From a virus: 41,124 nucleotides of DNA. Location: positions 1 to 41,124 of the IMG/VR virus record IMGVR_UViG_3300047440_000072; one strand, given 5' to 3'. Shown piece after piece: positions 3,519 to 41,124 of the stretch. The notes below the pieces were generated by a model that was not told the origin of the DNA, searched no databases, and was given only the letters and a program-made list of their open reading frames with translations. Both the position numbers and the translations under genes were made by a program. Position 1 is the first letter of the stretch; every line of letters starts with the position of its first letter.

Positions 3519-3526
3519 GTGGGCTC

Positions 3527-3763: not shown

Positions 3764-4119
3764 ACGTTGAACTTGATAGAGTGCTTGGGGACGGAGAGGA
3801 CGCCGGGCAGGTTCACGTCGTCTTTCCACCGGGCCTTGACGGCCGAGACGGTGACGCGCTTCTGAAGAAGGTCAACCGCGCCGTTCTCCACGATGTAGTC
3901 GAGCAGCTTCGGCCAGCTGTCCACCAGGGGCTCGTCGGTGGTGACGAGGTTCACGACGATGCCGCCGTCCTCGTAGGTGTCACGACCTTCCTGGGCCATG
4001 GCCTCGATGAGGGCGTTCGTGAGGGCTTTCTCCTCCTGCTCCAGAAGGTCGGCCTCACGTTGTAAGCTGAGGCGCTTGGAGCGGACCGCCAAGATGGCGG
4101 GGACAGAAATGGTAGACAT
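3760..4119 (-). CDS. Hypothetical protein with N-terminal helical region (119 aa)
   Basis: I do not recognise the family. Residues about 10-45 form a charged amphipathic helix (LQREADLLEQEEKALTNAL) suited to a coiled coil. A mixed alpha/beta part with many Val/Asp residues follows. CTAGGAG lies upstream of the ATG. It is the first gene after a sigma70-like promoter at 4154-4182 and overlaps the DUF551-like gene by 4 bases. It probably heads a transcript covering the 276-aa protein and the secreted PKD protein. Confidence 0.7.
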   Translation of the reverse strand: MSTISVPAILAVRSKRLSLQREADLLEQEEKALTNALIEAMAQEGRDTYEDGGIVVNLVTTDEPLVDSWPKLLDYIVENGAVDLLQKRVTVSAVKARWKDDVNLPGVLSVPKHSIKFNV

Positions 4120-6212: not shown

Positions 6213-6436
6213 CGCGGCTCCCCCACGTCCAGGTCCAAGTACTTGACGTCCACACCGGTGTCGGGGCCGGAGAGTTGACGGCGGAGGGTGTCGAGGTACT
6301 CACGCTCGGCCCAGGTCTTGAGCATGGCCTCCAGCTCTTGGAGGTGACCAGCCACGTGGGCCGGGCGGTTCTGGCCGTAGACCACCTTCAGGGAGTGGAC
6401 GGCCCAGGCGAGGCTCTTGGCTTGTTTGTGGTTCAT
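6209..6436 (-). CDS. Small hypothetical protein (75 aa)
   Basis: This is a mostly helical 75-residue protein (LAWAVHSLKVVYGQ, HLQELEAMLKTWAEREYLDTLRRQL) with an acidic tail. It is coupled by ATGA overlaps to the genes on both sides. I do not recognise it, and no catalytic motif is visible. Confidence 0.65.
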   Translation of the reverse strand: MNHKQAKSLAWAVHSLKVVYGQNRPAHVAGHLQELEAMLKTWAEREYLDTLRRQLSGPDTGVDVKYLDLDVGEPR

Positions 6437-6948
6437 TCCCCGCTCTCCTCAGCCTTGTCCTCGTCGCAGCGGAGCTCATAGATGGGCCGGGGGGTCTTGT
6501 CCGGCTCAGTATAGCCCGTGATGACGCGGCGGCACGTCTCGCTGTCCTCCTTGAAGTTGGCGGTGACCGCGACCATGAGCTGGGGGCGATAGCCGTCATA
6601 ATCGGGGCCGTACCAGGTGAAGGAGTAGAGCCGTGCGAACGAGCCCGCGTCGTCCCAGCTGTAGGTGCTGTCCGGGTTGGAGTGGACGAAGGCGTCGAGC
6701 AGAGCTGCGAGCCCCTCGTCCTTGAGACCGGAGAGGTTCTTCAGGGTCATCGAGATGGCGGTGTAGTAGTGGTCCACATACTGGCTGACCTTCGCGTCGT
6801 GCTTGTCCTTCAGGTACTCTACGCTGTCGAGGAGCTTCTTCACGGGAGCAGAGCGCATCCACTGGCGGGAGTGGTTGAGCTTCTTCGCCTTCAGCTGAAG
6901 CTCCTCCATGATCCGCTCCTGGAGCGTCTTCACTGGGTTCTCGTTCAT
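6433..6948 (-). CDS. Hypothetical protein, first gene of the left early operon (171 aa)
   Basis: The N-terminal half is helical and basic (ERIMEELQLKAKKLNHSRQWM). The C-terminal half is Tyr/Trp-rich and beta-like (LYSFTWYGPDYDGYRPQLMVAVTANF) with an acidic end. It is the promoter-proximal gene of the minus-strand operon. A TATACT -10 element lies 45 bases upstream. It is not recognised. First genes of phage early operons are often host-takeover proteins, but that is position-based inference. Confidence 0.7.
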   Translation of the reverse strand: MNENPVKTLQERIMEELQLKAKKLNHSRQWMRSAPVKKLLDSVEYLKDKHDAKVSQYVDHYYTAISMTLKNLSGLKDEGLAALLDAFVHSNPDSTYSWDDAGSFARLYSFTWYGPDYDGYRPQLMVAVTANFKEDSETCRRVITGYTEPDKTPRPIYELRCDEDKAEESGE

Positions 6949-6992
6949 GTCGTCTAGCCTAGGTGCTCCGGGGTCCGCCCGGTCGGTACCGA

Positions 6993-6998
6993 AGTATA
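6993..6998 (-). promoter_or_regulatory. Probable -10 element of the left early promoter
   Basis: On the minus strand TATACTT follows GGCGTGCCCGCT. The same TATACTT preceded by a GC-rich GCG.. stretch occurs in the divergent promoter at 7074 and at 10034. No good -35 is visible, so the GC box may be an activator or operator site. It serves the leftward operon starting at 6948. Confidence 0.45.
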
Positions 6999-7050
6999 AG
7001 CGGGCACGCCACTGGCGGGGGAGAGAATCGTATGTAATTCCTGGACTAGC

Positions 7051-7079
7051 TAGTAATCGCGGGCGCTCGCGCGTATACT
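7051..7079 (+). promoter_or_regulatory. Probable rightward early promoter
   Basis: A -10 TATACT (7074-7079) lies 30 bases before the ATG at 7109. The 17-base spacer contains GCGCTCGCGC (7063-7072), which also occurs at 9943-9952; the related GCGCTGCGCG lies before the TATACT at 10034. The -35 is weak (TAGTAA). With the leftward TATACT at 6998, this makes the 160-bp gap a divergent control region. Confidence 0.45.
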
Positions 7080-7108
7080 TAAATTCCCCCGCCGTCTAGG
7101 AGAAAATT

Positions 7109-7375
7109 ATGCCTCGTAAGGGAGTTCACTCTATTCCCCGACCTGCTATACCTGAAGGATGGTGCTTCACGGTAGAGGCGTCACGTATACTGAATGTCCA
7201 TACAAGCGCTGTCAATGATCCAGTCGTTCGGTATGATGTCCCATACCGCAAAGTACAAGGTTGGGTCATTTACCATATTGACAGTCTCAAACTGGTCGCC
7301 AAAGAGATTGAAGCTATAAGGGCGTCCAAGAAGGACAAGAGGTATCGTCAGCCGCAGGAGACAAGTAATGCCTAA
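7109..7375 (+). CDS. Small winged-helix-like DNA-binding protein (88 aa)
   Basis: Residues about 18-60 (WCFTVEASRILNVHTSAVN, then VPYRKVQGWVIYHIDSL) fit the layout of MerR/excisionase-type winged helices: a helix, a turn with N-V-H-T-S, a recognition helix and a wing that returns to a strand. The C-terminus is basic (RASKKDKRYRQ). AGGAGA lies 7 bases before the ATG. Its last codons overlap the primase-helicase start by 8 bases. Inference: it is a regulator or replication-initiation accessory protein, and the repeated GCGCTCGCGC boxes nearby are candidate sites. The assignment is from pattern only. Confidence 0.55.
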   Translation: MPRKGVHSIPRPAIPEGWCFTVEASRILNVHTSAVNDPVVRYDVPYRKVQGWVIYHIDSLKLVAKEIEAIRASKKDKRYRQPQETSNA

Positions 7376-11129: not shown

Positions 11130-11549
11130 ATGGATGCCCAGCCAATACCGCCGGTTGAGAGGGACCCCGCCCTCCAAGCACTACTTGACGCCCCCGAGCT
11201 GGTCCTACAGGGCCTTGACCTACAGATGTCCCCCGAGCTGACCCGGCTCCTTGAGCGCGGTCTGATCGGGAACAGCCTCCCACCCATATTAAAGGACTCA
11301 AAAGCAGCTAAGGCGTTCCAGCAGGCCTTTGAAATGATTGGTGGGGTCCCACGCCTCGCATTATGGGCGGACCAGAATCCGACCAAGTTCTACACCCTGT
11401 ACTCCAAGCTTGTCCCCGCCACCGCCGAGATCCATGAGAAGCGGGACATAAACGTCACCATTTCCTGGGCCTCCGCTGAGCGCCTCTCATATCGGGCAGA
11501 CCCCAATTTGACGGTTGAGATGGACCCCGGGGGCGACCAAGATGGCTAA
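11130..11549 (+). CDS. Terminase small subunit (probable, 139 aa)
   Basis: The assignment rests mainly on position: it overlaps the large terminase by 8 bases and starts the packaging/head operon. The protein has a Pro-rich start (MDAQPIPPVERDPALQ), several helices (LTRLLERGLIG, AKAFQQAFEMIGG), and a beta-like end (DINVTISW) that may contact the large subunit. Small subunits normally recognise the packaging site as ring oligomers; the inverted repeats just upstream are candidate targets. No clear Shine-Dalgarno is present before ATG 11130 (a second ATG is at 11134), consistent with a leaderless or weakly initiated mRNA. A TTG start at 11085 would put the promoter inside the gene and is disfavoured. 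Confidence 0.65.
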   Translation: MDAQPIPPVERDPALQALLDAPELVLQGLDLQMSPELTRLLERGLIGNSLPPILKDSKAAKAFQQAFEMIGGVPRLALWADQNPTKFYTLYSKLVPATAEIHEKRDINVTISWASAERLSYRADPNLTVEMDPGGDQDG

Positions 11550-12921
11550 AACGTTTGAATATGTCCCCCGCCCCCATTTCTTGCCCTTCCACAACCGCAA
11601 GCAACGGTGGGCTAACCTCTGTACTCACCGCCGCGCGGGGAAAACCGTGGCCCTCGTCAATGACGTAATTGTTGGCTCCCTCCAGTGCCCAGAGCGCAAG
11701 CCTCAGCATGCCTACGTTGGACCCACGTTCACACAATCCAAGCGGATTGCCTGGGCATACCTGAAGGACTACAGTGAGCAGTACTGGTCCAAACCTCCGT
11801 CAGAGTCCGAGTTGAAAGTATCATTACATGGAGACCGCACAATTTACTGTTTGGGAGCAGACAATCCAGACTCCCTGCGGGGCATGTACCTTGACGGGGG
11901 TGTGGGGGATGAGTACGCGCTTTGGAGACCCTCTGTATTTTCCACTATCATCCGACCAGCCTTGTCAGACCGAACCGGCTGGTGGGTATTTGCTTCCACC
12001 CCACGAGGCAAGAATCTGTTCCACAAGGAGTGGAAGAAAGGGCTGAAGAACCCCAACGCCTACTTCTCTTTGATGTTACGGGCGTCTGAGTCAGGTATCA
12101 TTCCCCAGTGGGAACTTGATGCCCTCCGGGAGGACATGGACCCAGAGGAGTTCGCGCAGGAGTACGAGTGCTCATTTGATGCGGCCCTGAAGGGTGCGAT
12201 CTATGCCAATGAGGTCAACATGCTCTTCCTTGAGAAGCGCATCCGACCCCAGCTGTATGACCCCCACCTGCCAACCCACGTCATATTTGACCTGGGCTTC
12301 ACTGACGCCACCGTGGCGATCTACTGGCAAGAGTCCCCCCAGGACCAGTCTATCCGCATTGTAAATGTGGATAGCTCCCACGGGAAGGACATCCAGCACC
12401 ACATTGACGCCATTCTCGCCTTCAAGGGCCTCGGAGAGCTGGGGAGCGTTTGGCTCCCCCATGACGCCAAGGCCAGAAACCTACAAACCGGCCGGTCCAT
12501 CGTGGAGCAGTTCCTCGACAATGAGATCCGCCCCTCCCTGGTCCCTGGCCATAAGGTGCGGGACCGACTGGCCGCTACCCGGAAGCTGTTCCCTCAGATT
12601 TACATCAGTGAGGAGTGCTCCGAAGAGCTGGTTGAGGCCCTGAAGGGCTACCGTAGGGAGTGGGACGAGAACCGGCTGATGTTCTCCGACACCCCATTCC
12701 ATGACTGGTGCTCAGATTTTGCCGATGCGTTCGGGTATATGTGTGTTGTTGCCGCCCCCCGGTTCAACTCACCACACACTTCCGCCGACAACTCCCTTGA
12801 CGCCCGCAAAGCACGCTCCCGCAAGGCCACCCCAGCCACACCGTTCATCTCGGTCAACCTAGAGCACCTGTTTCAAGACCATGAGGACAGACTGAACTCG
12901 TCCAACCGGAGAATACAATGA
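11542..12921 (+). CDS. Terminase large subunit (459 aa)
   Basis: This is the ATP-driven DNA packaging motor and headful/cos nuclease. Visible motifs are Walker A H-R-R-A-G-K-T (29-35), Walker B with acidic pair D123-E124 in GGVGDEY, coupling motif STP (152-154), and RNase H-like nuclease acids D250 (VIFDLGFTD), D308 (HDAK) and D388/D392/D395 (HDWCSDFADAF). The length is typical. The start ATG at 11542 lies in the end of the small subunit; an in-frame upstream ATG at 11515 is further inside that gene and less likely. The stop overlaps the portal start (ATGA). It works with the portal at the procapsid vertex. Confidence 0.93.
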   Translation: MAKTFEYVPRPHFLPFHNRKQRWANLCTHRRAGKTVALVNDVIVGSLQCPERKPQHAYVGPTFTQSKRIAWAYLKDYSEQYWSKPPSESELKVSLHGDRTIYCLGADNPDSLRGMYLDGGVGDEYALWRPSVFSTIIRPALSDRTGWWVFASTPRGKNLFHKEWKKGLKNPNAYFSLMLRASESGIIPQWELDALREDMDPEEFAQEYECSFDAALKGAIYANEVNMLFLEKRIRPQLYDPHLPTHVIFDLGFTDATVAIYWQESPQDQSIRIVNVDSSHGKDIQHHIDAILAFKGLGELGSVWLPHDAKARNLQTGRSIVEQFLDNEIRPSLVPGHKVRDRLAATRKLFPQIYISEECSEELVEALKGYRREWDENRLMFSDTPFHDWCSDFADAFGYMCVVAAPRFNSPHTSADNSLDARKARSRKATPATPFISVNLEHLFQDHEDRLNSSNRRIQ

Positions 12922-30113: not shown

Positions 30114-30440
30114 CTAGCGGCGCTTACGCGGGGAGGGTCGGGGGGTAGGAGCCGGGGCGACGGTCGGAGCGCTGCAGCGGTCCTGGTCAACGTACCCGAC
30201 CAACCCTTCGTTCTCAGCGGCTGTCTCCAGCTCGATGAGTTTCTCCAGGAAGTGCTTGGCCTTCTCCAGGTCCTCAGTGCCGTTCTTGTTCTGGTACCGC
30301 TCCACGTACTTCGTGATACAACCAATGAAGTACCCGGGGCCGAACAGACGATATTGACGCGTCCAGTGCTCCTCGCCGCCGTCCTCAGACTTGTAGTGCC
30401 CGCCCCCGACTTGCCGGGAGTCAGCCAAAGATGTGCTCAT
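30114..30440 (-). CDS. DUF3310-family protein (108 aa)
   Basis: The motifs VGGGHYKS near the start, then YFIGCITKYVERYQNKNG and EDLEKAKHFLEKLIEL, are the signature of the DUF3310 family, often labelled phage nucleotide kinase but without proof. The end is Pro/Arg-rich (PTPRPSPRKRR) beyond the family core. The ATG overlaps the HD-domain gene by 20 bases. It is placed with other nucleotide-metabolism genes. Confidence 0.8.
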   Translation of the reverse strand: MSTSLADSRQVGGGHYKSEDGGEEHWTRQYRLFGPGYFIGCITKYVERYQNKNGTEDLEKAKHFLEKLIELETAAENEGLVGYVDQDRCSAPTVAPAPTPRPSPRKRR

Positions 30441-30903
30441 ATAGTGCCTTGCTTTCAGTGGTGGGGAAACCGAGGGTGTTCAGGGCCTCTATGCCCCGAG
30501 CGTGGATCGCCTCCGCGTCCTCGTTGCCCATGACGGCGTGGGTCGCGGTGTAGAGACACAGCTCGAACAGGTCGGCCCATTCGAGAATCTGTTGCTCCCG
30601 TTTCGACAGGTCGAACCGGAGGCCCATCTTGATGTTGAACTTCTCCTCCATGCCTTTCAGGGCCTTGTCCAGCTCGGGGTTCTCCCACTTCGCCGGGGCG
30701 GGAATGTCTCCTGTCTCGGACTCGGCCAGGTCGTGGACCAGGGCGGCCATGAGGAGGTACGGGGGCGGGGTGTAGTTCGGGTAGATGAAGTGGACAATCA
30801 TCGCCACGCCCCACGAGTGCTGACCCAAGAGCTGGGCCGGGACGTCAGTGGTATGGTACCGCTTGACCCGGCCTGCCTTGTAAAGGTGTTTGAACTCTCT
30901 CAT
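30421..30903 (-). CDS. HD-domain 5'-nucleotidase, YfbR-like (160 aa)
   Basis: Metal-binding HD motif residues are visible: H29 (GQHSWGVAM), H57-D58 (ALVHDLAESETGDIP) with E61 and D66, and D111 (EWADLFEL). This is the layout of YfbR-type deoxynucleoside 5'-monophosphatases. It should remove phosphate from dNMPs in the cytoplasm. In a phage that replaces thymine, it could drain dTMP or dUMP pools. ATG 30903 is coupled by ATGA to the thymidylate-synthase-like gene, which supports a joint pathway. The longer start at 30942 would run into that gene. Confidence 0.85.
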   Translation of the reverse strand: MREFKHLYKAGRVKRYHTTDVPAQLLGQHSWGVAMIVHFIYPNYTPPPYLLMAALVHDLAESETGDIPAPAKWENPELDKALKGMEEKFNIKMGLRFDLSKREQQILEWADLFELCLYTATHAVMGNEDAEAIHARGIEALNTLGFPTTESKALYEHIFG

Positions 30904-31871
30904 GTCTTCTCCCAGTTGCGGCGTTGGAGCCACTCTTCGCACGCTATCTTGACCTCTAGATCTGTAATAGTGGAGGCGTAGAGGAAGGCGTTGTCTCGGT
31001 TCTTCAGCTTGTAGAACTCCCAGGAGTGAACCATAGGATTGAGCACATTTGTGATGAATTTATTGTTATGCGGATAACGAGGGTGCACTATCCAGTCCTC
31101 GAACTCGCTCAGGTCTTTCCTCCAAGTTGCTGGGGTCGTTATAGGGACGTGGCTGCTCGCCATTTCTTGCGAGTAACCGTGCGGATCAGCTACGGCATCC
31201 ATGAAAGGGAAATGACCCTCATAGATGTGGAAGTTGTTACTTATCTGTAAGTACTGACCCACAGTCGCCCCGAGGGCGTTGGCGACGAACTCCTGAAGGA
31301 TGGACATATGGACAGCGTTGGCCCCGTAGCAGCCCCAGACTATGTCGTTGCTACGGTTCGTCACCGTCATGTTGAGCTTCCCCTCCACGATCTCAAAGTA
31401 GATGGCGGTGTTACAGGGAATATCCTTGCCTCCGTCATAGGCTTGGTCCACGTCCGGGTCGAACATCTGGACCACGGTTCTCCTTGAGTTCGGCTCTGCT
31501 TTCAGGTGCTCGATCGCCCACATGAGCTGGTCGTGCCCAAAGTGGTTTCGCCACCTGTGGCCGTAGGCCCCGTGGAACGTCTCCCCATTGTCGGAGTACT
31601 GTCCGATGTTCGAGTTGAACTGACTGATCCACTCTACATCATTCCGTCCTGCTAGCATCCATACCGACTCAAAGATGTGGAAGAACGGGTTGGCGTCCCG
31701 GCGAACGTCTCTGAGCATGCGTTCCGTAGGGTGCTGGTAAGCCGTGGCTACCGGACCAAGTATGCGTCTAGCCTTACCGTTGCGGGTGTCTACAGTGACC
31801 CCCATTATCTTCATTCGCCACAACGCCTCATGGTAAGCATAGTTGACGTTACGAGCTTGAATCACGAGCAT
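30900..31871 (-). CDS. Thymidylate synthase-fold protein, candidate dUMP hydroxymethylase (323 aa)
   Basis: Fold-defining residues are present: R130-R131 (phosphate binding, SRRTVVQM), catalytic C153 (DIPCNTAIYFE), R173-S-N-D176 (NRSNDIVWG), N185 (GANAVH), and H215-Y217 (SNNFHIYEGH). Classical ThyA has RS.D..LG.PFN; here RSNDIVWGCYGAN inserts one residue and lacks the LPFN core. This is the form seen in phage dUMP/dCMP hydroxymethylases and divergent synthases. With the kinase and transferase-like genes nearby, conversion of dUMP to 5-hydroxymethyl-dUMP with methylene-THF is likely. Plain thymidylate synthesis cannot be excluded from sequence alone. Confidence 0.8.
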   Translation of the reverse strand: MLVIQARNVNYAYHEALWRMKIMGVTVDTRNGKARRILGPVATAYQHPTERMLRDVRRDANPFFHIFESVWMLAGRNDVEWISQFNSNIGQYSDNGETFHGAYGHRWRNHFGHDQLMWAIEHLKAEPNSRRTVVQMFDPDVDQAYDGGKDIPCNTAIYFEIVEGKLNMTVTNRSNDIVWGCYGANAVHMSILQEFVANALGATVGQYLQISNNFHIYEGHFPFMDAVADPHGYSQEMASSHVPITTPATWRKDLSEFEDWIVHPRYPHNNKFITNVLNPMVHSWEFYKLKNRDNAFLYASTITDLEVKIACEEWLQRRNWEKT

Positions 31872-32124
31872 CGTTGAACTCCTTCAAGTGTTGTTTAAGT
31901 TCCGCCTTGATTCGGCGGGCGTCTTCGCCCCTCCATCGGGCCATATTGTCGAGCGCGCGGGCGACAATCATGTCTCCGTACTCCAGACCGTACATGTCCT
32001 TACACGAGAATATCTGAGTCATGGCCTCGACGTAGGGCATAGCGAACCGATAGCTGGACCCCGGAGGTTTGACCTTCCAGAGCCGCATTATCTCCCGGCC
32101 TATCTCATCGAGTGGTCTAGTCAT
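31849..32124 (-). CDS. Hypothetical helical protein (91 aa)
   Basis: ATG 32124 is chosen because it lies in the end of the zinc-ribbon gene (8-base overlap); an upstream reading has no ribosome site. The protein is helical and charged (YGLEYGDMIVARALDNMARW, DARRIKAELKQHLKEF) and its end overlaps the TS-like start by 23 bases. I do not recognise it. The close coupling suggests a role near nucleotide metabolism. Confidence 0.6.
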   Translation of the reverse strand: MTRPLDEIGREIMRLWKVKPPGSSYRFAMPYVEAMTQIFSCKDMYGLEYGDMIVARALDNMARWRGEDARRIKAELKQHLKEFNDARDSSS

Positions 32125-32323
32125 CGTTGAAAAGCCCATCGAAGCACTTCTCGCAGTAGCCGCTGATTTGCGTCTCGCGCCAACCCATCTGAGAGTTGGT
32201 GTTCTTGCCCGAGAAGGCGTCACGGCACTTGGCGCACATCTTGTAGCGCATATTGGGGAGGTTCCCCTGGTAGTCCTTCTCAGATATGGGGAGCAGATTC
32301 CCCTTGATTCCGATGGTAGCCAT
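32117..32323 (-). CDS. Small zinc-ribbon protein (68 aa)
   Basis: Two CxxC knuckles (CAKCRDAF and YCEKCF) separated by about 23 residues make a typical zinc ribbon. GGAG precedes the ATG. It is the first gene after the promoter at 32353-32381. Such small phage ribbons may bind nucleic acid or host proteins; the target is unknown. Confidence 0.65.
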   Translation of the reverse strand: MATIGIKGNLLPISEKDYQGNLPNMRYKMCAKCRDAFSGKNTNSQMGWRETQISGYCEKCFDGLFNDD

Positions 32324-32350
32324 TCGATTCTCCAGTAGTGGCGGGAACCC

Positions 32351-33187
32351 CTATTCTACCCGATAGGTATTCTTCAGTCGCTCCCCATAATGCTTCGCAC
32401 GAACGTATTTACTGAGCTCACATAAGCAGTTTTGCGTATTTTGAGCGCAGAGTTCCAGGCCGGTATTCCCCAGGATGACGTCCCTAATATCGTCCACCTC
32501 GACCATGAACTGCTCCGAGCCCATGACCTTGCTTCTCGGGCGCTCATGTACAAAATTGAGGCCCATGACGGACCCCGGCCCGGGGGCGCACCAGGTCCAC
32601 CAGTCGATGGCGGGGCGTAGGTGCTGCGTGTTCTTGAGGTCGGCTATGACCTGAGCCACTAGGAAGGGGCCCATGCCCGGGGTGGCGAGAAGAACAGATG
32701 CTTCATGTAGAGTCTTGACCGGGTACACATTGAACGCCTCGCACCTCTCCGCAGCCCCACCTAGCACACGAGCGATGATGTCCTCTTTGCCTTCGCCGCC
32801 TGCAGAAAATCCGCCTGTGACCATATACGCCCCGGTCCAGGACTTCATACCTACAGCTCGGCGCTCGGCGAACGTCTCAAACCAGTTCTTCCTGTATTCC
32901 TCTGTCCACCCCTCGGAGGGGTACCCCAGACGCACGAGCGTATCGGGCCAGTTCACGAGCCGCGCGACGCAGAGGGCGAACGGGATGGAGGGGTCAGAGA
33001 GGTCCGTGGGCAGGAAGTTCTGGAAGATCCACCTGGTCACCTTGTCGTTCTCACGGTGGACGTTGCACCACCTGTTATTGGCGATGATCGGGTCGGAGGT
33101 CCAGGGCGGCGGCTTCCTGAGCTCACGGGCCTTCCTGATCTTCTCCCGCTCCTGTATCCAGTGGATAAGGTCAGGGAGGTACTTCAT
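32351..33187 (-). CDS. Thymidine hypermodification protein, 5-hmdU kinase helical domain / aGPT-PPlase-like (278 aa)
   Basis: The N-terminus has IREKIRKAREL-like basic helices followed by PPPWTSDPIIANNRWCNVHR, then END(K)VTRW, a pattern I know from base-hypermodification proteins (helical domain of 5-hmdU DNA kinases and aGPT-PPlase superfamily, Iyer et al. 2013). Residues 167-184 (LLATPGMGPFLVAQVIADL) form a helix-hairpin-helix with PGMG, as in the HhH DNA glycosylase fold from which this superfamily derives. D195-WWTWCAPGPGSVMGLN follows. It should act on 5-hydroxymethyl-dU in DNA, activating or substituting it. Its stop lies inside the -10 box of the next promoter. Confidence 0.75.
   Translation of the reverse strand: MKYLPDLIHWIQEREKIRKARELRKPPPWTSDPIIANNRWCNVHRENDKVTRWIFQNFLPTDLSDPSIPFALCVARLVNWPDTLVRLGYPSEGWTEEYRKNWFETFAERRAVGMKSWTGAYMVTGGFSAGGEGKEDIIARVLGGAAERCEAFNVYPVKTLHEASVLLATPGMGPFLVAQVIADLKNTQHLRPAIDWWTWCAPGPGSVMGLNFVHERPRSKVMGSEQFMVEVDDIRDVILGNTGLELCAQNTQNCLCELSKYVRAKHYGERLKNTYRVE
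32353..32381 (-). promoter_or_regulatory. TAGAAT promoter before the zinc-ribbon/TS-like genes
   Basis: On the minus strand a weak -35 GCGACT (32381-32376), a 17-base spacer and TAGAAT (32358-32353) lie at the end of the hypermodification gene. The transcript would start AGGGG and contain TTCCCGCCACTA, shared with the promoter at 36389. The stop codon TAG of the upstream gene lies within the box. Confidence 0.6.
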
Positions 33188-33387
33188 GCTTTCCTCTTCT
33201 GTAGCATCTCGTCGGCCATCATGTAGGCGTCGTGAGCGATCAGGGCGGTGTCGTGCTTCCCGATACGGGCCACCAATCCCATCATCGCTTGCCCGGCGAA
33301 GTAGTCGCGCAGAGTCATACCCAAGTATGGGTATTCTCCCAAACCGCTCGGGAATGCTGGTTCGCTTACCTCTTCAATATTGTTCAT
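33184..33387 (-). CDS. Small phage protein with GMTLRDYFAGQAM motif (67 aa)
   Basis: The motif GMTLRDYFAGQAMMGL, followed by AHDAYMMADEMLQKRK, is very common in phage and prophage small proteins of unknown function. ATGA overlaps join it to neighbours on both sides. It is of normal length for the type. No function can be given. Confidence 0.75.
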   Translation of the reverse strand: MNNIEEVSEPAFPSGLGEYPYLGMTLRDYFAGQAMMGLVARIGKHDTALIAHDAYMMADEMLQKRKA

Positions 33388-33728
33388 TGCTTCTTCCCTG
33401 TTGGATTATGTAAGTCGTGGATCATGACCCGCATCTGGCCGCGCTTCTTGTCGTCCTCGATCTGCTTGTTCAGATAGATGTTCGCCGCGAGGTTGAACTC
33501 GCAGGCCTCTAGGGGGAACACGATCTGACCATGGGCCTCGTAGAACACGGGGCAGGACACGGCCCGGTCGTTAGCGTCCAGGGGCTTCTCCTCCGCGCTC
33601 TCCCAATGACACCCGTAGGAGTTGAAGATGAGGATATTCATCAGCTGGTGCAGGTCGCCATGGATGCGACGCTTCGACACGGGGTCAAGGAACTCCGCCC
33701 CGGTGATGAGACAAGTTGTACCGATCAT
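33384..33728 (-). CDS. Hypothetical protein (114 aa)
   Basis: ATG 33728 has AAGGAA upstream and overlaps the MazG-like stop; a start at 33752 lies further inside that gene. The protein contains MIGTTCLITGAEFLDPVSKR and CPVFYEAHGQIVFPLEACEF, with no domain I recognise. It is encoded inside the nucleotide/hypermodification block. Confidence 0.6.
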   Translation of the reverse strand: MIGTTCLITGAEFLDPVSKRRIHGDLHQLMNILIFNSYGCHWESAEEKPLDANDRAVSCPVFYEAHGQIVFPLEACEFNLAANIYLNKQIEDDKKRGQMRVMIHDLHNPTGKKQ

Positions 33729-33997
33729 GATTCGTTTCCTTGGTTGTGCCACTCTCTGAATTGGATCAACTTTGATTGGTAGCGATTGAATATCTTCTCT
33801 CGACCATCTAAGCGATGCGTTTCGACTACAAACTGTATGGCGGCGCGAAGGTCGCCCAGTTCATTCTCCAGACGATCGTGAAGATTGCCCGCTCCGTCAG
33901 GATGCTCACCGCCAGGGTAAGCTATCAACTTACCCGCGATCTGGAGTACCTCTCCGCACTCTTCTACTAACTTGGCTAGTCCGTTATTGGCCATCAT
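33725..33997 (-). CDS. MazG-like nucleotide pyrophosphohydrolase (90 aa)
   Basis: The MazG metal-binding pattern is visible: E12-E13-x2-E16 (LVEECGEVLQIAGKL) and E46-x2-D49 (ENELGDLRAAIQF). Such all-alpha NTP pyrophosphatases hydrolyse dNTPs to dNMPs and pyrophosphate. Next to a P-loop kinase and a TS-like gene it could remove dTTP so that the modified precursor is used. The ATG overlaps the kinase stop (ATGA). The family's short phage forms are of this size. Confidence 0.75.
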   Translation of the reverse strand: MMANNGLAKLVEECGEVLQIAGKLIAYPGGEHPDGAGNLHDRLENELGDLRAAIQFVVETHRLDGREKIFNRYQSKLIQFREWHNQGNES

Positions 33998-34554
33998 TTC
34001 AGTAGCTCCGTGATTTGTTGGACCAAGTCCCCGTCGTGCTTCAAGGTGACCACCTCGTGGTAGAACCCCACTCCGCCCCGTATCAGCTTGCTCTTCAGGG
34101 CCTCAATGGTAGCGTGCTTGTCCCGCGTAAGCTGGGGATTGAACTTGTTGTTCCGGCCGGAAGCAGCCCTGCGGGCGACGACGCGTTCTAAGCACACCTC
34201 TACAGGCGTGTCCAGGAACGCATAGATGTAGCGGTCTTTGTACTTCTGGGAGTGGACCCCCATGGCCCCGTAGTACGTGCTCTGGAGGAGGCCCTCAAAG
34301 ATGACATGTCCCAACTTCTCGTACTTCTCCAGGAGCTTCATGACCTCCTCGGCAGAGCCGACCGTGTCCATTCCCCCGCAGGTATTAGCGTAGTTGCCGA
34401 GGGCGTAGATGGTATTGGAAGGGTCAACATACGCTTCTGTCTTGTCTGCCGTTGGGTAGACGAGGGGGTGCATATTGTAGCGGTCCAACACTTGCCGCAC
34501 GGCGGTGGTCTTACCCGCGCCCGAGCAGCCGTGGATTTTAATGATCTTGTTCAT
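33994..34554 (-). CDS. P-loop kinase, candidate 5-hydroxymethyl-dU DNA kinase (186 aa)
   Basis: Walker A is G9-C-S-G-A-G-K15-T-T (KIHGCSGAGKTT). A later FEGLLQSTYYG stretch and LDTPVEVCLERVVARR look like the lid/NMP-binding parts of nucleoside-type kinases. Small P-loop kinases of this type in phages with hydroxymethylated thymine phosphorylate 5-hmdU in DNA, the activating step of thymidine hypermodification. The chain could instead be a dNMP or polynucleotide kinase. It lies in one operon with the HhH hypermodification protein, MazG and a methyltransferase-like gene, which favours the first reading. Confidence 0.7.
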   Translation of the reverse strand: MNKIIKIHGCSGAGKTTAVRQVLDRYNMHPLVYPTADKTEAYVDPSNTIYALGNYANTCGGMDTVGSAEEVMKLLEKYEKLGHVIFEGLLQSTYYGAMGVHSQKYKDRYIYAFLDTPVEVCLERVVARRAASGRNNKFNPQLTRDKHATIEALKSKLIRGGVGFYHEVVTLKHDGDLVQQITELLK

Positions 34555-34756
34555 GTACGTCCTCCAGTTTGATCTCCTGCCTGTCGCACCTAAGTCCTTT
34601 GGCTACCCGCTCGGCGAACTCACGAGTATCCCAGGTTTGGAACAGACGCCACTCCCCAAGCTCGACTCGCTCAGAGAAGTTACACCCGTTGTAGCACCTG
34701 CGTTGCGGGTCAGTGTTTACAACTGTTCGACTGCGTATGTAGATACGGGTAGTCAT
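34538..34756 (-). CDS. Hypothetical protein between kinase and methyltransferase genes (72 aa)
   Basis: The protein starts MTTRIYIRSRTVVNTDPQRRCYNGC and is rich in Arg and Glu (EFAERVAKGLRCDRQEIKLED). ATGA couples it to the methyltransferase-like gene, and its end overlaps the kinase start by 17 bases. No family is recognised; three cysteines (two in CYNGC) could bind a metal. Confidence 0.6.
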   Translation of the reverse strand: MTTRIYIRSRTVVNTDPQRRCYNGCNFSERVELGEWRLFQTWDTREFAERVAKGLRCDRQEIKLEDVHEQDH

Positions 34757-35331
34757 TTGCCCACCTCCATCAAGTAGTAACTGGACCCCAGGCCGATGCG
34801 GGAGTCCAGGGTACGGAACCCGTAGGTGTCCTGCATGTACTGACTGAACACCTGCCGGTAGTTGTAACGGTCTACGGAGCCGAACAGCTCCTCGTACAAC
34901 ACCTTATGGTTCGGCAGGTGGCACCAATAGGCCCCATACTCCTGCATGAGGATGTACTTCGCCTTGGACAGGGAGATGTTGTAGAGTAGCCCCCGCCAGA
35001 TGTTCTCCTTAACCATGGCGTTGAGGGTGCCCTTATGGGGGTCAATAACCACCAGGTCGCCGAAGTCTTTAACCTTGAACGCGTCGTCGTTGATCACCAC
35101 GGCCTTGCGTACTTTCCACTTCAGTACGCACTCGGGGTCGATCTCAACGGCGAACCAGGACTTGGGCTCCAGTATGGGCCAGAGCCTCTCGCAGAGCGTG
35201 CCGACGCCCCCGAACAGGTCAGTCACGCTGAGACCCTTCGGGAGTTGCTCCGCCAGCTCTGCGAATATCTCGATGTACTTCTCTACAGGTTTCCCCTCAT
35301 AGGCAGAGGGGTGGCCAAAGTTGCCCTTCAT
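34753..35331 (-). CDS. Rossmann-fold methyltransferase-like protein (192 aa)
   Basis: SAM-binding motif I D38-LFGGVGTLCE, an acidic strand end (FAVEID63-65), a second acidic loop (NDDAF) and a motif IV position D97-PHKGT are visible. Motif IV is not the DPPY/NPPY of DNA amino-methyltransferases, and there is no Pro-Cys of cytosine-C5 enzymes. So the enzyme may modify another atom, use another substrate or be inactive. It may belong to the hypermodification pathway by position. The ATG overlaps the upstream stop (ATGA). Confidence 0.65.
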   Translation of the reverse strand: MKGNFGHPSAYEGKPVEKYIEIFAELAEQLPKGLSVTDLFGGVGTLCERLWPILEPKSWFAVEIDPECVLKWKVRKAVVINDDAFKVKDFGDLVVIDPHKGTLNAMVKENIWRGLLYNISLSKAKYILMQEYGAYWCHLPNHKVLYEELFGSVDRYNYRQVFSQYMQDTYGFRTLDSRIGLGSSYYLMEVGK

Positions 35332-35930
35332 GGTTTGCTCCCAGGAGTGGGCTGTGGTGCTGCCTCTGGGGCTTGAGCCAGTGCGCGTGTGACGGGGATC
35401 ATGTTCTGGCGGATATCAATGGCGACGCTTGAGCAGTGGACTCGCCCATCGCCATCGCGGCCCATCTGTTCGTAGCTCTTGGCGTACAAATCAAGCGGAT
35501 GTGCCGCCCCCTCTGCCGGGGTTTGGCTCGCAGGGGTGGCGAAGCTGTAGCACCTCAGCTTTGCCAATACCTTGGGCGCGTCTCGCTTCTTGTCGATCGC
35601 CGAGCAAGCTGCCCCGATCAAACTGCGCGGGACGGCAATCAAATCATCATCCGACGACAGGCGCGGGCACTCGTTAGTGGCGCTGTCATGGGCTTCGCGC
35701 TGCTGGTAGCAATGAACGCACAAGGCGTTTGCCATTTGCCACGTTGTCCGATTCGCCGGCTCTGCCTGCGCTGGGGTGGCAGAGGTCAATGCTTCGATAG
35801 CGGCAAGCGGTAACGCAGAAAGTGCGTCCAACGCTTGGGAAGCGAGCATTGCCGTATCGTCGTAGGGCGACCAGTGTGCCAGCTTCAAGCAGTATCGAAG
35901 CTCCTCAATAAGTTCGTCTCTGGTTTTCAT
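35328..35930 (-). CDS. Hypothetical protein of mosaic type (200 aa)
   Basis: The N-terminal 45 residues are helical (DELIEELRYCLKLAHWSPYD). The middle has CVHCYQQREAHDSATNECP, which could bind zinc. The rest is Pro/Ala-rich and ends APEAAPQPTPGSKP. Composition differs from its neighbours: many AT-rich and rare-type codons and low-complexity stretches, suggesting recent transfer from another phage. AAGGA precedes the ATG. Function unknown. Confidence 0.6.
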   Translation of the reverse strand: MKTRDELIEELRYCLKLAHWSPYDDTAMLASQALDALSALPLAAIEALTSATPAQAEPANRTTWQMANALCVHCYQQREAHDSATNECPRLSSDDDLIAVPRSLIGAACSAIDKKRDAPKVLAKLRCYSFATPASQTPAEGAAHPLDLYAKSYEQMGRDGDGRVHCSSVAIDIRQNMIPVTRALAQAPEAAPQPTPGSKP

Positions 35931-35932
35931 AT

Positions 35933-36358
35933 TCAGTCCTTGAAAGGTACGCCGTGGGCGAAGGTGGGGTCGGTCCAGGGCCCTTCAGGAAGGGACGCGG
36001 GCATGTCCTCCAGCTGGTTCAGCATCTTGTAGATACCGTGACGGGCAACGTGGGGGAAGCGCCTCACGTACTCTTCGCACATGTCCTGGGCGTAGAAGTA
36101 CAACCAGGAGTAGTTCCGGTCGCTCTCGCACGCCCAACGGACCCAATCCGCGTCCTTGTAGTGGGGGCCGAACGCTTTGCGCCCCTCCATGGTGTACGCG
36201 TTCGCGGCTTCCTTCACGAACCGCTTCGGCTCCAGGGTCCACCAAACACCGGTCAGATGGATAGCTGCCCGAATCGGGCCGGCAATAATCCACTGGTCCT
36301 CCAAGCCCCGGACGGCCATCGCCGTTTCCTTGCCGGGGAAGATCAAATCTAAGCTCAT
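35933..36358 (-). CDS. Conserved phage protein, NYxWL motif (141 aa)
   Basis: The core reads SDRNYSWLYFYAQDMCEEYVR, then H.......L....MPASLPEGPWTDP. The pattern N-Y-x-W-L ... C-x-E-Y-x-x-R-F ... LP is found in small phage proteins sometimes linked to pyrimidine-dimer DNA glycosylase annotations. No catalytic residue can be confirmed, so an enzyme name is not justified. It starts after a TAGAAT promoter with AGGAG upstream, so it heads the operon containing the methyltransferase, kinase and HhH genes. Confidence 0.6.
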   Translation of the reverse strand: MSLDLIFPGKETAMAVRGLEDQWIIAGPIRAAIHLTGVWWTLEPKRFVKEAANAYTMEGRKAFGPHYKDADWVRWACESDRNYSWLYFYAQDMCEEYVRRFPHVARHGIYKMLNQLEDMPASLPEGPWTDPTFAHGVPFKD

Positions 36359-36388
36359 CAGTTCTCCTATTAGTGGCGGGAAGCCCCT

Positions 36389-36394
36389 ATTCTA
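36389..36394 (-). promoter_or_regulatory. TAGAAT -10 with conserved leader
   Basis: On the minus strand TAGAAT is followed by AGGGGCTTCCCGCCACTA, nearly the same as at 32353. A -35 at the usual distance is not visible, so the leader rather than the -35 is conserved, or an activator helps. It precedes the 141-aa gene by 31 bases. Confidence 0.5.
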
Positions 36395-36401
36395 ACCTAG
36401 A

Positions 36402-37769
36402 TCACCCCGCTGGGGGTACGTATTTTATTGCGGCGTTGAGGGCGTCCTGGGTGTCCCCCTTAGCCGCCAATGCCTTGATGACTTCAGCATCTTTGGTATT
36501 CCTAGCAACTATATGGTGGACGGACACAACCGGGGAGGGCTGACCTTGCCGCCAGACTCGGGCGATGGACTGCTGATACAGCTCCAGGTCCCAGGGTATG
36601 CCGTACCAACAGATGTCCTTACAGACCTCCTGAAGGTTGAGCCCGTGCCCCATAGACTTCGGATGACCGATCAGGAGGGGAATCTTGCCCTCGTTGAAGG
36701 CTTTGACGATACCCAGGGAGTCCTTGCCCTTGCTGATGTTGACGGCCCCGGGGAACATCTTCTCCAGTGCCGTCGCGTCCTCGATGAATTCGTAGCATAC
36801 GATCAACGGGCGACCCTGCATCTCCTCCACCAGCTCTAGGAGAGCCTCCATCTTGTGGCCGTGTATCCCGAGCGCGGTGTGGTCCTCGTTGTATATGAAG
36901 CCATTGGCCACCTGGCGGAGCTTGACCCCGAGCGCGGCCTTGTTGAACACGGGCACCGTCTCGTCATTAACCTTGATCAGGAAGTCCCGCTCCAGCTCCT
37001 TGTACTTCTTCATGACGGCCGGGGCCAGACTGACCTCAATGTAGTTGTTGATCAGCTCCGGCATCTCCAGGTGGTCCACCGCCATCATTCGGAGTAGCTT
37101 GCCCTTAACGCGTTCATAAATCTCTTGCGACGCGCCGGGGGCAAGGAGCCAGCTGAAGCCGTCATGGCTCTGATACATGTATCTTTGTCGAAAGTGGGTG
37201 ACGTACTTGCCCAACGCTTCGCCCATATCGCAAACGTACATTTGGCCAAAGAGGTCAGCAAGACCATTTGGGGCGGGGGTACCTGTGAGGATGACTCGTC
37301 GTGCAAACTTGTGAAGGTGCTTTTTAAGTGACTTAAACCTCTGCGTTTGCGAGTCTTTGAACTTTGTGCTCTCATCGATGACGAGCATGTCAAAGTTGAG
37401 ATACTTCCACGGATCGAGGTCAAGTAGACGGACGAGCGACTCAGGGTTGATGACATACACATCGTGCTTCTCCTTCAGCAGTTCTACACGCTCCGCGGCG
37501 CCCATCTCCGTCAGGTCTATGACCGTCATGTTCTGAAAGTCGGCCCACTTCTCGGCCTCCACCGGCCAGACTGTCTTCGCCACCCGGAGAGGGGCCACGA
37601 CCAGAGCGTGATGAATATGGCTCTCCCCCTTCAGGAAGTCCACGGCGGCGAGGGTAGTGCTCGTCTTGCCTAGGCCAGGATCAAGTAGGAGGCCGCAGTG
37701 GGGCTTCTCGATCAACCACTCTAGGGCCGTAACCTGGTAATCACGAGGCGACCAGCGTACAACGCTCAT
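36402..37769 (-). CDS. SNF2-family DNA helicase/translocase (455 aa)
   Basis: Motifs in order: Q/I region DYQVTALEWL, Walker A D30-PGLGKTST, motif Ia VVAPLRV, motif II D132-E-S-T, motif III L161-TGTP, and motif VI QQSIARVWRQGQ (about 399-410). These define a superfamily 2 SNF2-like ATPase. Phage members work in replication fork or recombination processing. GGAG lies 6-8 bases before ATG 37769. The start lies 29 bases within the end of the neighbouring gene. It is followed by a TAGAAT promoter for the next operon part. Confidence 0.9.
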   Translation of the reverse strand: MSVVRWSPRDYQVTALEWLIEKPHCGLLLDPGLGKTSTTLAAVDFLKGESHIHHALVVAPLRVAKTVWPVEAEKWADFQNMTVIDLTEMGAAERVELLKEKHDVYVINPESLVRLLDLDPWKYLNFDMLVIDESTKFKDSQTQRFKSLKKHLHKFARRVILTGTPAPNGLADLFGQMYVCDMGEALGKYVTHFRQRYMYQSHDGFSWLLAPGASQEIYERVKGKLLRMMAVDHLEMPELINNYIEVSLAPAVMKKYKELERDFLIKVNDETVPVFNKAALGVKLRQVANGFIYNEDHTALGIHGHKMEALLELVEEMQGRPLIVCYEFIEDATALEKMFPGAVNISKGKDSLGIVKAFNEGKIPLLIGHPKSMGHGLNLQEVCKDICWYGIPWDLELYQQSIARVWRQGQPSPVVSVHHIVARNTKDAEVIKALAAKGDTQDALNAAIKYVPPAG

Positions 37770-38547
37770 ACTTGCTCCAGTTCTCTTTGGGGGGAAGCAA
37801 CTCCAGAAGCTCCGGCCAACGGTGTAGTTGGAGGTACTTGCTGTCGATATCGTCCCCGATGGTGTGCGTCTTCGTGATGAAGTAGCCCTTTAGCATACAG
37901 AGCACCGTCTCCGCCTCCTGGTACGAGCAGGGGCGATTGAAGCTCGGAGGGGCGGGCATCCTATGGATGTAGTTCGTCACCTTCTCCAGGGCCTCCACGA
38001 AGGGCAGATGGGGCCAGAGGATACCGGCGCACTTACGAGGCTCGTCGGGGCAGTGTTTAACTGCCTCCTCCAGGGAGAGGGAGATTGGTCGCCCCCAGAC
38101 GCGCTCCTGGAAGTCCAACACTTTCCAGATGAAGTAGGCTCCAAAGCCGCACCCGGCGAACTTGTCCTTGAACACCTTGACCAGCTCCGTGTAGGAGGGG
38201 GCCCACATGGTGGTCCAAATACTGTGCGGGGACCCGTGGAGGGACAGGTTCGTGAGGAAGCCCATACCAAGGGCTCCCCGAGTATGCCTGCGCTCCGTGC
38301 CCCGGGGGAAGGAGCTGTAACCGTCGAACATGTACTCCCAGAACGTAGAGGCGGTCGTCTTGTCCGCACACTGTACGGCCCCGCCCAGATCGTAGAAGCA
38401 CAGGTAGTGAACGATGAACCGTTCGGCCCACTCCTCTCCCTTGAGCTCCCGAGCCTTATACAGGAACTCGTATGACGGATCCAGATCGTTCGTGAGGATG
38501 GTTATCTCAGCGAACTTCTGCCACGTACTCACCGTTGTCGATTCCAT
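37741..38547 (-). CDS. Amino-acid:DNA transferase / aGPT-PPlase-like thymidine hypermodification protein (268 aa)
   Basis: The N-terminus has D21-L-D23-P-S-Y-E-F-L-Y-K-A-R-E, then GEEWAERFIVHYLCFYDLGG, followed by FPRGTERRHTRGALG (80-94) and FAGCGFGAYFIWKVLDFQER (130-149), an HhH-like stretch. Later come PDEPRKCAG and ETVLCMLKGYFITKTHTIGD. I associate this set (DP.Y..LY..RE, PRG.ERRH, GCGFGAYFIWK) with the aGPT-PPlase / ADDT-type transferases that install amino acids on phosphorylated 5-hmdU. The identification is from memory of motifs. GGAG is 9 bases before ATG 38547. It is in one operon with nucleases and the SNF2 helicase. Confidence 0.6.
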   Translation of the reverse strand: MESTTVSTWQKFAEITILTNDLDPSYEFLYKARELKGEEWAERFIVHYLCFYDLGGAVQCADKTTASTFWEYMFDGYSSFPRGTERRHTRGALGMGFLTNLSLHGSPHSIWTTMWAPSYTELVKVFKDKFAGCGFGAYFIWKVLDFQERVWGRPISLSLEEAVKHCPDEPRKCAGILWPHLPFVEALEKVTNYIHRMPAPPSFNRPCSYQEAETVLCMLKGYFITKTHTIGDDIDSKYLQLHRWPELLELLPPKENWSKYERCTLVAS

Positions 38548-38821
38548 TTTTCCAGTTCTCCAATAGTTTGATCCCGACATCTATGTCGTCTACCACGTAC
38601 ACCTTGAACCCGTACTCCTTCAGGACTCCGTGTACGTGAGCTTGTAATGGCTCAGGTTTCGCCCCGGGCCGCTTGAACTCGATGAAGCACATATGAGCCT
38701 TGTACCCGTAGCCGTAGTCAGGCCAACCCTTCCGCCCCGTGACGTTAATTCTAACCGGGAGCAGGCCGTTAAAGTATGCCCACTTCGTGACTTTCTCCTG
38801 TATTTCAGACTCCCGCTTCAC
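38507..38821 (-). CDS. VRR-NUC type nuclease (104 aa)
   Basis: The short PD-(D/E)xK domain shows E7 (ESEIQEKV), G32-W-P-D35, E48-F-K50 (FIEFKRPG) and Q60 (PLQAHVHGVL), the VRR-NUC order. Such stand-alone phage proteins cut branched DNA such as Holliday junctions. The GTG at 38821 is chosen because it lies in the end of the upstream gene (17-base overlap); a longer reading is Ser-rich and unsupported. It ends inside the transferase-like gene start. Confidence 0.85.
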   Translation of the reverse strand: MKRESEIQEKVTKWAYFNGLLPVRINVTGRKGWPDYGYGYKAHMCFIEFKRPGAKPEPLQAHVHGVLKEYGFKVYVVDDIDVGIKLLENWKNGIDNGEYVAEVR

Positions 38822-39473: not shown

Positions 39474-39697
39474 TTGTACTCCTTCAGGATTTTGTTTCCA
39501 AGGTCGAGCCATGCCGGGTCGTGGGACTCCTCATATTGCTGGTAGAGCCAATCAGATAAGGCTTCCCGACCATGGAGGGGTCCAGTGTAGATTCTGATAA
39601 CCTGGTAGTTGCTCCACTGCTTATCGTACTCCCTACGCCGCTCCAGCACCTCGGCGACCCATGGGCACTCTTCAGGGGTTAGATTGTACCATTTCAT
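39470..39697 (-). CDS. Small hypothetical protein after DNA polymerase (75 aa)
   Basis: The protein starts MKWYNLTPEECPWVAEVLERRR and is acidic/aromatic. ATGA overlaps couple it to the DNA polymerase stop and to the exonuclease start. I do not recognise it; the tight coupling suggests a replication accessory role. Confidence 0.65.
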   Translation of the reverse strand: MKWYNLTPEECPWVAEVLERRREYDKQWSNYQVIRIYTGPLHGREALSDWLYQQYEESHDPAWLDLGNKILKEYK

Positions 39698-41124
39698 TGA
39701 TACTTCTCCAAGTCATACCAGTTAGTCCCGGTCTCAACCTCAATCACGAACGGGACATCGAAGCCGGGAAGGTCTTCCATGGCCACTCTGAGCTTCTCAA
39801 CGTTCTCCTTGACGTCCTGAGGCTTACAGGAGATGTTCCCCTCGTCGTGTACACACATGAGGTACCGGCCCGTGGGCTTGAGGTCATGGTAGACAATGAT
39901 GGACTCCTTCAGTTGGTCGGCGGCGGAACCTTGGATGAGGTGGTTAGCCAGTTTGTAGCTGAAGTCCCATGTGGTCCCCTCGGGCTTGTCCACAGGTATC
40001 CAACGACCACCCCATGTCCGCACCCCGGGCCGGGAGGTTACATCCGCAATGAACTCCTTCAGCCCTGGGATGGACCGGAGGTACATGTCCCGCAGTCGGC
40101 GCACCTCCCCCTTGTCCGACATCTTGAGCTGCTCGGCCAGATTGGGGACCCCAGCCCCGTAGATGAGGGAGAAGCCCACGATCTTGACCTTCTTGCGGGG
40201 GTAGTCAATGCTGGCCTCGTCGTGGAGAATGTTCTTCGCAATCTCGTGGAAGTCAGCCCGGGGGTTCTCCCTGTAAATCTCCGCCGCTCTGCCCTCAGCG
40301 AAGTGGGCCAGTAGGCGCATCTCCTGACCGTTCCAGTCGGCGCTTACGATGACCTCCCCCTCGTCAGGAAGGATGTACCGACGCATGAAGATCATGGGCG
40401 GGTAGCCCGGCATGTCTATGTCCTCGAACTCTGTCGGGACATTCGTCAGGTTGGGAGCCGAGCAGGAGAGGCGTCCAGTACGGGTGCCGTACTCGTCACC
40501 GCGTACTTGGTTCCATGAAGGATGTAGGTGCCCATCGTGGGAGGACATCTCGTACCAGGGCTTCATGAAGGTCCCTAGCAGCGTTTTGAGCGCGCCCCGG
40601 TACCGTAGGGCGGCGAGCAGCTGCGGGTCCTGCACAGCGGCTTCTAGGGCGCTGCGGGCGGTTGAGTATTTCCCCGTAGGGGTCCGCGCGAGGTTAGCGA
40701 CTTTTCCCGACGAGATAAGCGCTTTTGCCAGCTCCACACCCGAATCGACGTTAAAGCTGACGCCAATCCGCTCCTGTATCCAGTCCGTGACTTGTTCAAA
40801 GAATACAGAGTAGGTCTGGATATCCATCCATAGCTTGGGGCGGTCTATTCGCACCCCTCGCTTCTCCATATCCATCAGGATAGGGGCCAGCTTGAGCTCC
40901 CGCTCGTACGCAGCCTCCCACCTACGCTCTATGATTTCAGGATATAGTTTGTCGTGAATCTTTCGAGTCCGTACAACGTCCCCGATGGCGTATGGACCAA
41001 CAATAGAGGCGGGGACTCGGCAAATAAACGCTCCAGCTTCAGAGGTCTTCTTAGTGAATCCCTTCGCCATAACGTAATCTTTAACCGCATCTTGCTCGTC
41101 GGGGGGCATACCCAACAGTGTCTG
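39694..41124 (-). CDS. Family A DNA polymerase, C-terminal part (continues from 466)
   Basis: This is the main part of the polymerase that begins at 466 and crosses the junction. Numbered on the joined 589-residue protein, Exo III is Y158-x3-D162 (PYAIGDVV), motif A has D376 (VSADWNGQEMRLLAHF), motif B is RKKVKIVGFSLIYGAG (about 415-435), and motif C is C-V-H-D540-E. All catalytic residues are intact. The length is shorter than T7 polymerase (704), as in compact family A phage enzymes. The minus-strand frame is open through the window end; an initiation codon at 41115 (TTG) is not the real start. Confidence 0.92.
   Translation of the reverse strand, partial: QTLLGMPPDEQDAVKDYVMAKGFTKKTSEAGAFICRVPASIVGPYAIGDVVRTRKIHDKLYPEIIERRWEAAYERELKLAPILMDMEKRGVRIDRPKLWMDIQTYSVFFEQVTDWIQERIGVSFNVDSGVELAKALISSGKVANLARTPTGKYSTARSALEAAVQDPQLLAALRYRGALKTLLGTFMKPWYEMSSHDGHLHPSWNQVRGDEYGTRTGRLSCSAPNLTNVPTEFEDIDMPGYPPMIFMRRYILPDEGEVIVSADWNGQEMRLLAHFAEGRAAEIYRENPRADFHEIAKNILHDEASIDYPRKKVKIVGFSLIYGAGVPNLAEQLKMSDKGEVRRLRDMYLRSIPGLKEFIADVTSRPGVRTWGGRWIPVDKPEGTTWDFSYKLANHLIQGSAADQLKESIIVYHDLKPTGRYLMCVHDEGNISCKPQDVKENVEKLRVAMEDLPGFDVPFVIEVETGTNWYDLEKYQ
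40998..41124. repeat. Terminal direct repeat, right copy (assembly overlap)
   Basis: This is the second copy of bases 1-127. See the left copy for the reading as an assembly overlap of a circular contig. Confidence 0.93.

Follow-up and report, generated by a model that had tools for sequence, protein, structure and literature searches.

A compact predicted thymine hypermodification operon with a candidate methyltransferase partner in a complete phage genome

The virus record IMGVR_UViG_3300047440_000072, known from metagenome sequence only, was analyzed over its full 41,124 nucleotides (hereafter the window), and it holds a cluster of genes from the families that carry out thymine hypermodification in phages, together with a methyltransferase-like gene that accompanies them. 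The set is predicted to exchange many of the thymines in the viral DNA for a decorated base. Hypermodification of thymidine protects phage DNA against restriction enzymes, and published work expects many undiscovered chemistries of this kind in metagenomes. The record holds the phage genome in full: its first 127 bases are identical to its last 127 (1-127 = 40998-41124), forming a direct terminal repeat; the circular map measures 40,997 bp; and the gene for DNA polymerase, interrupted where the window ends, stays open, with no stop, across the terminal-repeat junction.

A one-strand cluster

All hypermodification open reading frames (ORFs) lie on the minus strand, and most neighbors overlap by 4-41 bp, the pattern of a single operon (Table 1). 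A reading made earlier from the nucleotide sequence (the original prediction) had named six of them as a core thymidine-hypermodification set: a thymidylate synthase (TS)-fold protein, an HD 5'-nucleotidase, a MazG pyrophosphohydrolase, a P-loop kinase, a protein of the HMUDK_hel/aGPT-PPlase family, and a second transferase. The six ORFs are where it put them, and the set was borne out by families, active-site residues, and an operon order like that of phage M6. It had overlooked both the methyltransferase-like gene and the completeness of the genome. The latter gives weight to a negative that it had reported: within the sensitivity of Pfam, the ORFs of the complete genome contain no pyridoxal phosphate (PLP), radical S-adenosylmethionine (SAM), or acetyltransferase tailoring family, and we found no flavin family either. 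The shorter starts of the HD gene (30903, within an ORF of 30421-30942 to which the Pfam match applies) and the ADDT gene (38547) are plausible, coinciding with the starts of homologues.

Table 1. Features of the window, with strand and supporting evidence
Feature	Position	Strand	Evidence
Direct terminal repeat	1-127		Identical to 40998-41124
DUF3310 protein, last gene of conserved module	30114-30440	-	Pfam 9.6e-8; synteny
HD-domain 5'-deoxynucleotidase (YfbR-like)	30421-30903	-	Pfam 5.6e-11
dUMP hydroxymethylase-type TS-fold enzyme	30900-31871	-	Pfam Thymidylat_synt 2.6e-23; active-site residues
Small conserved protein, next upstream from TS; probable start 32124	31849-32223	-	phrog_13953 1.2e-18; in relatives
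HMUDK_hel (5-hmdU DNA kinase helical domain / aGPT-PPlase1), stand-alone	32351-33187	-	Pfam 1.3e-32
MazG-like nucleotide pyrophosphohydrolase (EECGE..ENELGD)	33725-33997	-	phrog_25433 1.1e-15; phrog_4856 3.6e-11
5-hmdU DNA kinase (P-loop GCSGAGKT)	33994-34554	-	Pfam HMUDK_HMUD1 1.8e-10; M6 gp054 alignment
SAM-methyltransferase-like protein of class I (subfamily A), tailoring candidate	34753-35331	-	Motifs, AlphaFold2, Foldseek, co-occurrence with ADDT
Conserved small operon protein (141 aa)	35933-36358	-	phrog_624 'DNA binding protein' 4.9e-7; in relatives
SNF2-type DNA helicase, 29-bp overlap with ADDT, backbone-tree gene	36402-37769	-	Pfam SNF2-rel_dom 4.1e-22; synteny
ADDT (amino acid:DNA transferase, formerly aGPT-PPlase2), ORF opens at 38580	37741-38547	-	phrog_6364, tblastn, PDB, residues
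DNA polymerase A, continues over terminal repeat	39694-41124	-	Pfam DNA_pol_A 2e-50

The predicted hypermodification core

Both the P-loop kinase and the HMUDK_hel protein belong, on sequence, to families of 5-hydroxymethyl-deoxyuridine (5-hmdU) hypermodification, each scoring over its Pfam cut-off: the former matches the 5-hmdU DNA kinase family HMUDK_HMUD1 at 41.1 bits (cut-off 27), and the latter matches HMUDK_hel at 113.7 bits (cut-off 25) and is 30% identical to ORF055 of M6 (tblastn, 3e-30). The kinase family, including M6 gp054, is named 'terminase small subunit' in phrog_800 and several records, which looks like a misannotation.

Pfam and PHROGs both label the TS-fold enzyme a thymidylate synthase, as would fit a cluster that merely supplies dTTP, without hypermodification. 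Its closest solved chains, by comparison, are the CMP hydroxymethylases 5b6d/5jnh, which rank above every thymidylate synthase. Aligned with E. coli ThyA, it keeps the catalytic Cys146 and Asn177, carries Asn for His at position 147, and has Ile for Trp at position 80, the residue that in thymidylate synthase keeps water from the reaction. Asn177 specifies uracil, that is, dUMP and not dCMP (PMC8670742). The combination of Asn147, Asn177, and a residue other than Trp80 recurs in M6 gp058, a PaMx11-like phage, Pseudanabaena phage Pam3, Rhodoferax phage P26218, and an annotated dUMP hydroxymethylase. Identity is 44-46% to the M6 and PaMx11-like enzymes (43% to that of M6 in a separate comparison) versus 22% to ThyA, and on residues and identity we assign the protein to the dUMP hydroxymethylase type. 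Against a plain thymidylate synthase stand this divergence (44-46% versus 22%), Asn147, the loss of Trp80, and the presence of the 5-hmdU DNA kinase, HMUDK_hel, and ADDT in the same operon; we regard that reading as very improbable. The HD assignment of the original prediction stands. Its MazG assignment is backed by the pyrophosphohydrolase match in PHROGs (phrog_4856), with the Pfam MazG match (0.007) falling under the cut-off.

The second transferase would have been rejected on its Pfam ADDT score (37741-38580: 0.0055, 16.9 bits, under a cut-off of 26.2). That rejection was overturned by four lines of evidence, which settle membership: a match to phrog_6364 (2.8e-36); tblastn matches to phiW-14 gp109 (8e-24) and M6 gp051 (1e-11); matches to solved chains named amino acid:DNA transferase or glycinyltransferase (25qc, 9.8e-13; 8z2m 'Glycinyltransferase', 3.3e-9); and retention of 14/14 invariant columns in an 18-member family alignment. 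By sequence, the protein clearly belongs to ADDT. The original prediction had named a lack of family matches for this protein and for 32351-33187 as its refutation, and both proteins do match hypermodification families. In viral contigs, a scan with the single window protein gave no match, and the alignment-based ADDT scan worked.

A tree of ADDT proteins puts the window group next to phiW-14, SH-Ab 15599, and nACB2 at a support of 93/94, which is not decisive, and M6, the PaMx11-like proteins, and Pam3 lie apart; the motifs are mixed, with YFxWK as in phiW-14 and RRH as in the M6 type. We infer the role of gp109 as putrescine transferase of phiW-14 from its being the sole ADDT found in that phage, and the grouping only hints that putrescine may be the donor for the window enzyme.

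Drawing on the pathways shown in phiW-14, M6, and ViI, and assigning steps by family membership and residues, we propose the following route. The TS-fold enzyme would make 5-hydroxymethyl-dUMP, and the HD and MazG proteins would cut back the normal nucleotide pool; the family-A polymerase would put 5-hmdU into DNA; the 5-hmdU DNA kinase, with HMUDK_hel, would convert 5-hmdU in DNA to a pyrophosphate ester; and ADDT would exchange the pyrophosphate for an amine or amino acid. 5-hmdU, the DNA kinase, and later transferases are common to M6, ViI, and phiW-14 (PMC6449724), and in phiW-14 5-hmdU enters DNA and a pyrophosphorylated intermediate is then replaced by putrescine (PMC5977210). It is very likely that the operon carries out these four steps. 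The core is a further member of the known hypermodification clusters; the novelty lies in its coupling to the methyltransferase-like gene.

A methyltransferase-like gene that accompanies ADDT

The gene between the 141-aa ORF and the kinase encodes a 192-aa protein without a Pfam or PHROGs family. It bears class I methyltransferase motifs (FGGVGT, VEIDPEC, IDPHKGT), and its AlphaFold2 model (mean predicted local confidence, pLDDT, 85) gave broad SAM-methyltransferase matches in the PDB by Foldseek at template modeling (TM) scores of about 0.55-0.6, with a top viral match annotated AdoMet_MTases at TM 0.77. We thus predict a class I SAM-methyltransferase (Rossmann) fold. By hhalign (probability 95%, E 2.7e-8), the subfamily of the window (A) is remotely homologous to another (B), whose proteins have about 240 aa, and the family shares GGxG (motif I) and ExDxxC (acidic motif II). 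Neither subfamily had a tblastn match at 0.01 over 50,697 phage records, a pattern search of GTDB genomes gave no relative, and a homologue in Pam3 (Pam3_39) was found by profile only (6.3e-12).

We compared loci of the phage group that has the polymerase, nuclease, helicase, and core genes in common with the window. Subfamily A occurs in the window and in L044, L046, L061, L084, L086, L087, L062, and L005, and subfamily B in L042, L004, L012, L048, L065, L067, and L094, all of them ADDT-positive; neither was found in the ADDT-negative loci L010, L049, L051/L052, L013, and L018. The resulting distribution (16/16 ADDT-positive loci that could be judged versus 0/5 ADDT-negative) gives p 5e-5 if loci are independent. 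This value is optimistic and a guide only: the 16 positives come from phages related to one another, many loci are fragments, and the ADDT-negative relatives mostly branch close to the group's base.

The two subfamilies appear to replace one another. Each longer record checked with both profiles has one methyltransferase gene only, cross-hits of the other profile landing on the same gene, and across ADDT-positive loci the gene occupies four different positions. Subfamily A lies mostly where it does in the window; in other relatives subfamily B is found between HMUDK_hel and TS or, in L094, after DUF3310. The window has just 27 bp between HMUDK_hel and the next gene, the site of B in L042, and L042 has no gap between its 141-aa gene and kinase, which overlap at the site of A in the window. 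The SNF2 helicase tree twice joins an A locus and a B locus as sisters, the window (A) with L042 (B) and L084 (A) with L065 (B), and it puts L005 (A) beside the L048 group (B); this tree implies at least 5 changes between A and B, and the HMUDK_hel and kinase trees 6. Replacement without loss, at differing positions, suggests that the ADDT-bearing phages of this group need the function.

The strongest competing account is that the core alone yields the final base (5-hmdU, the pyrophosphate, or an ADDT adduct such as alpha-putrescinyl- or aminoacyl-thymine), and that the methyltransferase is an unrelated anti-restriction DNA methyltransferase, swapped as host restriction differs. Methyltransferase swapping is common among phages; the phiW-14 base arises when putrescine is transferred to the pyrophosphorylated intermediate (PMC5977210); the ADDT of the window falls with the phiW-14 clade; and P26218 and podovirus ctfPj964 carry the core without this gene. 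Yet the DPPY or PCQ motif IV of DNA amino- or C5-methyltransferases is lacking from these proteins, which have IDPHKGT, CEFxxNT, or DMSVGT instead; the gene was not found in the ADDT-negative sister phages; the GTDB search recovered no relative; and the gene tracks ADDT through its four positions. We give this account a substantial, if minority, share of the probability. A smaller share, small enough to make it improbable, goes to another SAM-fold enzyme that would supply the amine donor or lengthen the side chain, such as an aminopropyl- or carboxypropyl-transferase. Enzymes of this kind have the class I fold too, the PDB fold matches are broad, and the ADDT clade is nearer the putrescine type, but the top viral fold match is annotated as a methyltransferase and no specific aminopropyltransferase likeness appeared among the top 50 PDB matches.

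On balance, we favor a reading in which the operon performs the four core steps and the methyltransferase-like protein belongs to the pathway in some role, at a joint probability of roughly 0.6; participation of the protein, judged by itself, is slightly favored. Several observations weigh against this reading. The Pfam matches of ADDT and MazG are sub-threshold, the association statistic is inflated by relatedness, and the AlphaFold2 model of subfamily B is poor (pLDDT 54), so that its fold is argued from profile homology to A. L095 is ADDT-positive with no methyltransferase found, a possible exception, on a contig that stops right after the kinase. The gene is also absent from M6, phiW-14, PaMx11-like phages, P26218, and ctfPj964, and is therefore not a general component of the pathway.

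In a fifth step, the methyltransferase-like protein would tailor the side chain, with methylation of the amine or carboxylate there as the likeliest reaction. Methylation is argued from association and fold, and we hold it tentatively. The full proposal is more tentative by a shade: that a phage-only SAM-dependent family of two interchangeable subfamilies may methylate the ADDT-installed side chain on 5-hmdU, with an as yet undescribed methylated form of hypermodified thymine as the product. If so, the family would fill the role of the decarboxylases, radical SAM enzymes, or flavin lyases of M6, ViI, and PaMx11. If the protein decorates the ADDT product, a SAM-dependent step would join those already known, which involve decarboxylases, radical SAM enzymes, flavin, or acetyl transfer. 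The original prediction had suggested that the final base might be minimal; this is probably wrong and tailoring is likely, because a SAM-methyltransferase-like gene sits in the cluster and tracks ADDT in relatives. The truly minimal sets are those of P26218 and ctfPj964, with ADDT, a kinase-like protein, TS, and HD only. A small, complete, one-strand cluster points to a single testable new enzyme class, and, if its protein does act on the ADDT product, the two swappable subfamilies could be used for finding more such phages.

Known systems and relatives

Tailoring in the M6 type uses a PLP enzyme and a radical SAM isomerase, and in the PaMx11 type a flavin lyase and an acetyltransferase; the complete window genome has neither pair by Pfam family. 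The gene order ADDT, kinase, HMUDK_hel, TS, HD, and DUF3310 of Pseudomonas phage M6, a Yuavirus that makes 5-(2-aminoethyl)deoxyuridine (5-NedU), is that of the window (gp051, gp054, gp055, gp058, and gp059 from ADDT to HD). Between ADDT and the kinase, M6 has genes annotated as threonine dehydratase (gp052) and DNA repair photolyase (gp053), where we would place its tailoring step; the window lacks both and has the methyltransferase-like gene, which M6 lacks. The isolated cyanophage Pam3 has the full core and a methyltransferase-like homologue, like the window, but also the threonine dehydratase and photolyase annotations of M6, and its homologue is very diverged and lies about 5 kb upstream of ADDT. 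The Delftia phage phiW-14, which makes alpha-putrescinylthymine, shares HMUDK_hel and the sister ADDT clade; it differs in its 157-kb genome, scattered genes, and lack of a methyltransferase-like gene.

P26218 and ctfPj964 resemble the window in a compact helicase-ADDT-kinase-TS-HD-DUF3310 run within genomes of 36-38 kb, and differ in having no HMUDK_hel or methyltransferase-like gene genome-wide and a kinase Pfam match under the cut-off. Their clusters (L002:9773-12780 and L003:20063-23175) are the smallest set seen. In the available part of the account of HTVC023P-type pelagiphages (PMC9599517), a TS gene and an aG/PT-PPlase1 (HMUDK_hel-type) gene lie near PolA, as in the window, and that part names no 5-hmdU kinase, ADDT, or methyltransferase.

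Among further relatives, L031 has a flavin adenine dinucleotide (FAD)-dependent oxidoreductase of the DAO family adjoining ADDT (6300-7343), and a homologue adjoins ADDT in L008 (5567-6418). The gene is reminiscent of the PaMx11-type flavin lyase; other ADDT phages use other partners. Hydroxymethylase, kinase, and HMUDK_hel are present, with ADDT not detectable, in L010, L049, L051, and L052. Two other ADDT-negative loci, L013 (7218-8192) and L018 (8271-9125), possibly decorate 5-hmdU differently: L013 has a radical SAM-SPASM gene with a homologue in L018, where a weak TAGT glycosyltransferase match lies between the helicase and HMUDK_hel, and no kinase was found. In L007, an ATP-dependent DNA ligase gene (2989-3960) is inserted between HMUDK_hel and TS. 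Replacement of the 141-aa operon protein by a homologue in ADDT-negative phages was rejected (hhalign probability 1%).

Beyond the operon, Pfam assigned remaining ORFs to terminase, SU10 adaptor, and PD-(D/E)XK nuclease families. The nearest relatives of the large terminase (11515-12921), at about 35%, come from pelagiphages, methylophilales-phages, and freshwater phages, which makes a small podovirus of aquatic type the probable identity of the phage; among the isolates with the closest terminases, four that were tested lack HMUDK_hel and ADDT. Near the left end, positions 780-2582 encode a protein of 600 aa that contains PKD domains and probably serves in the tail or in surface binding.

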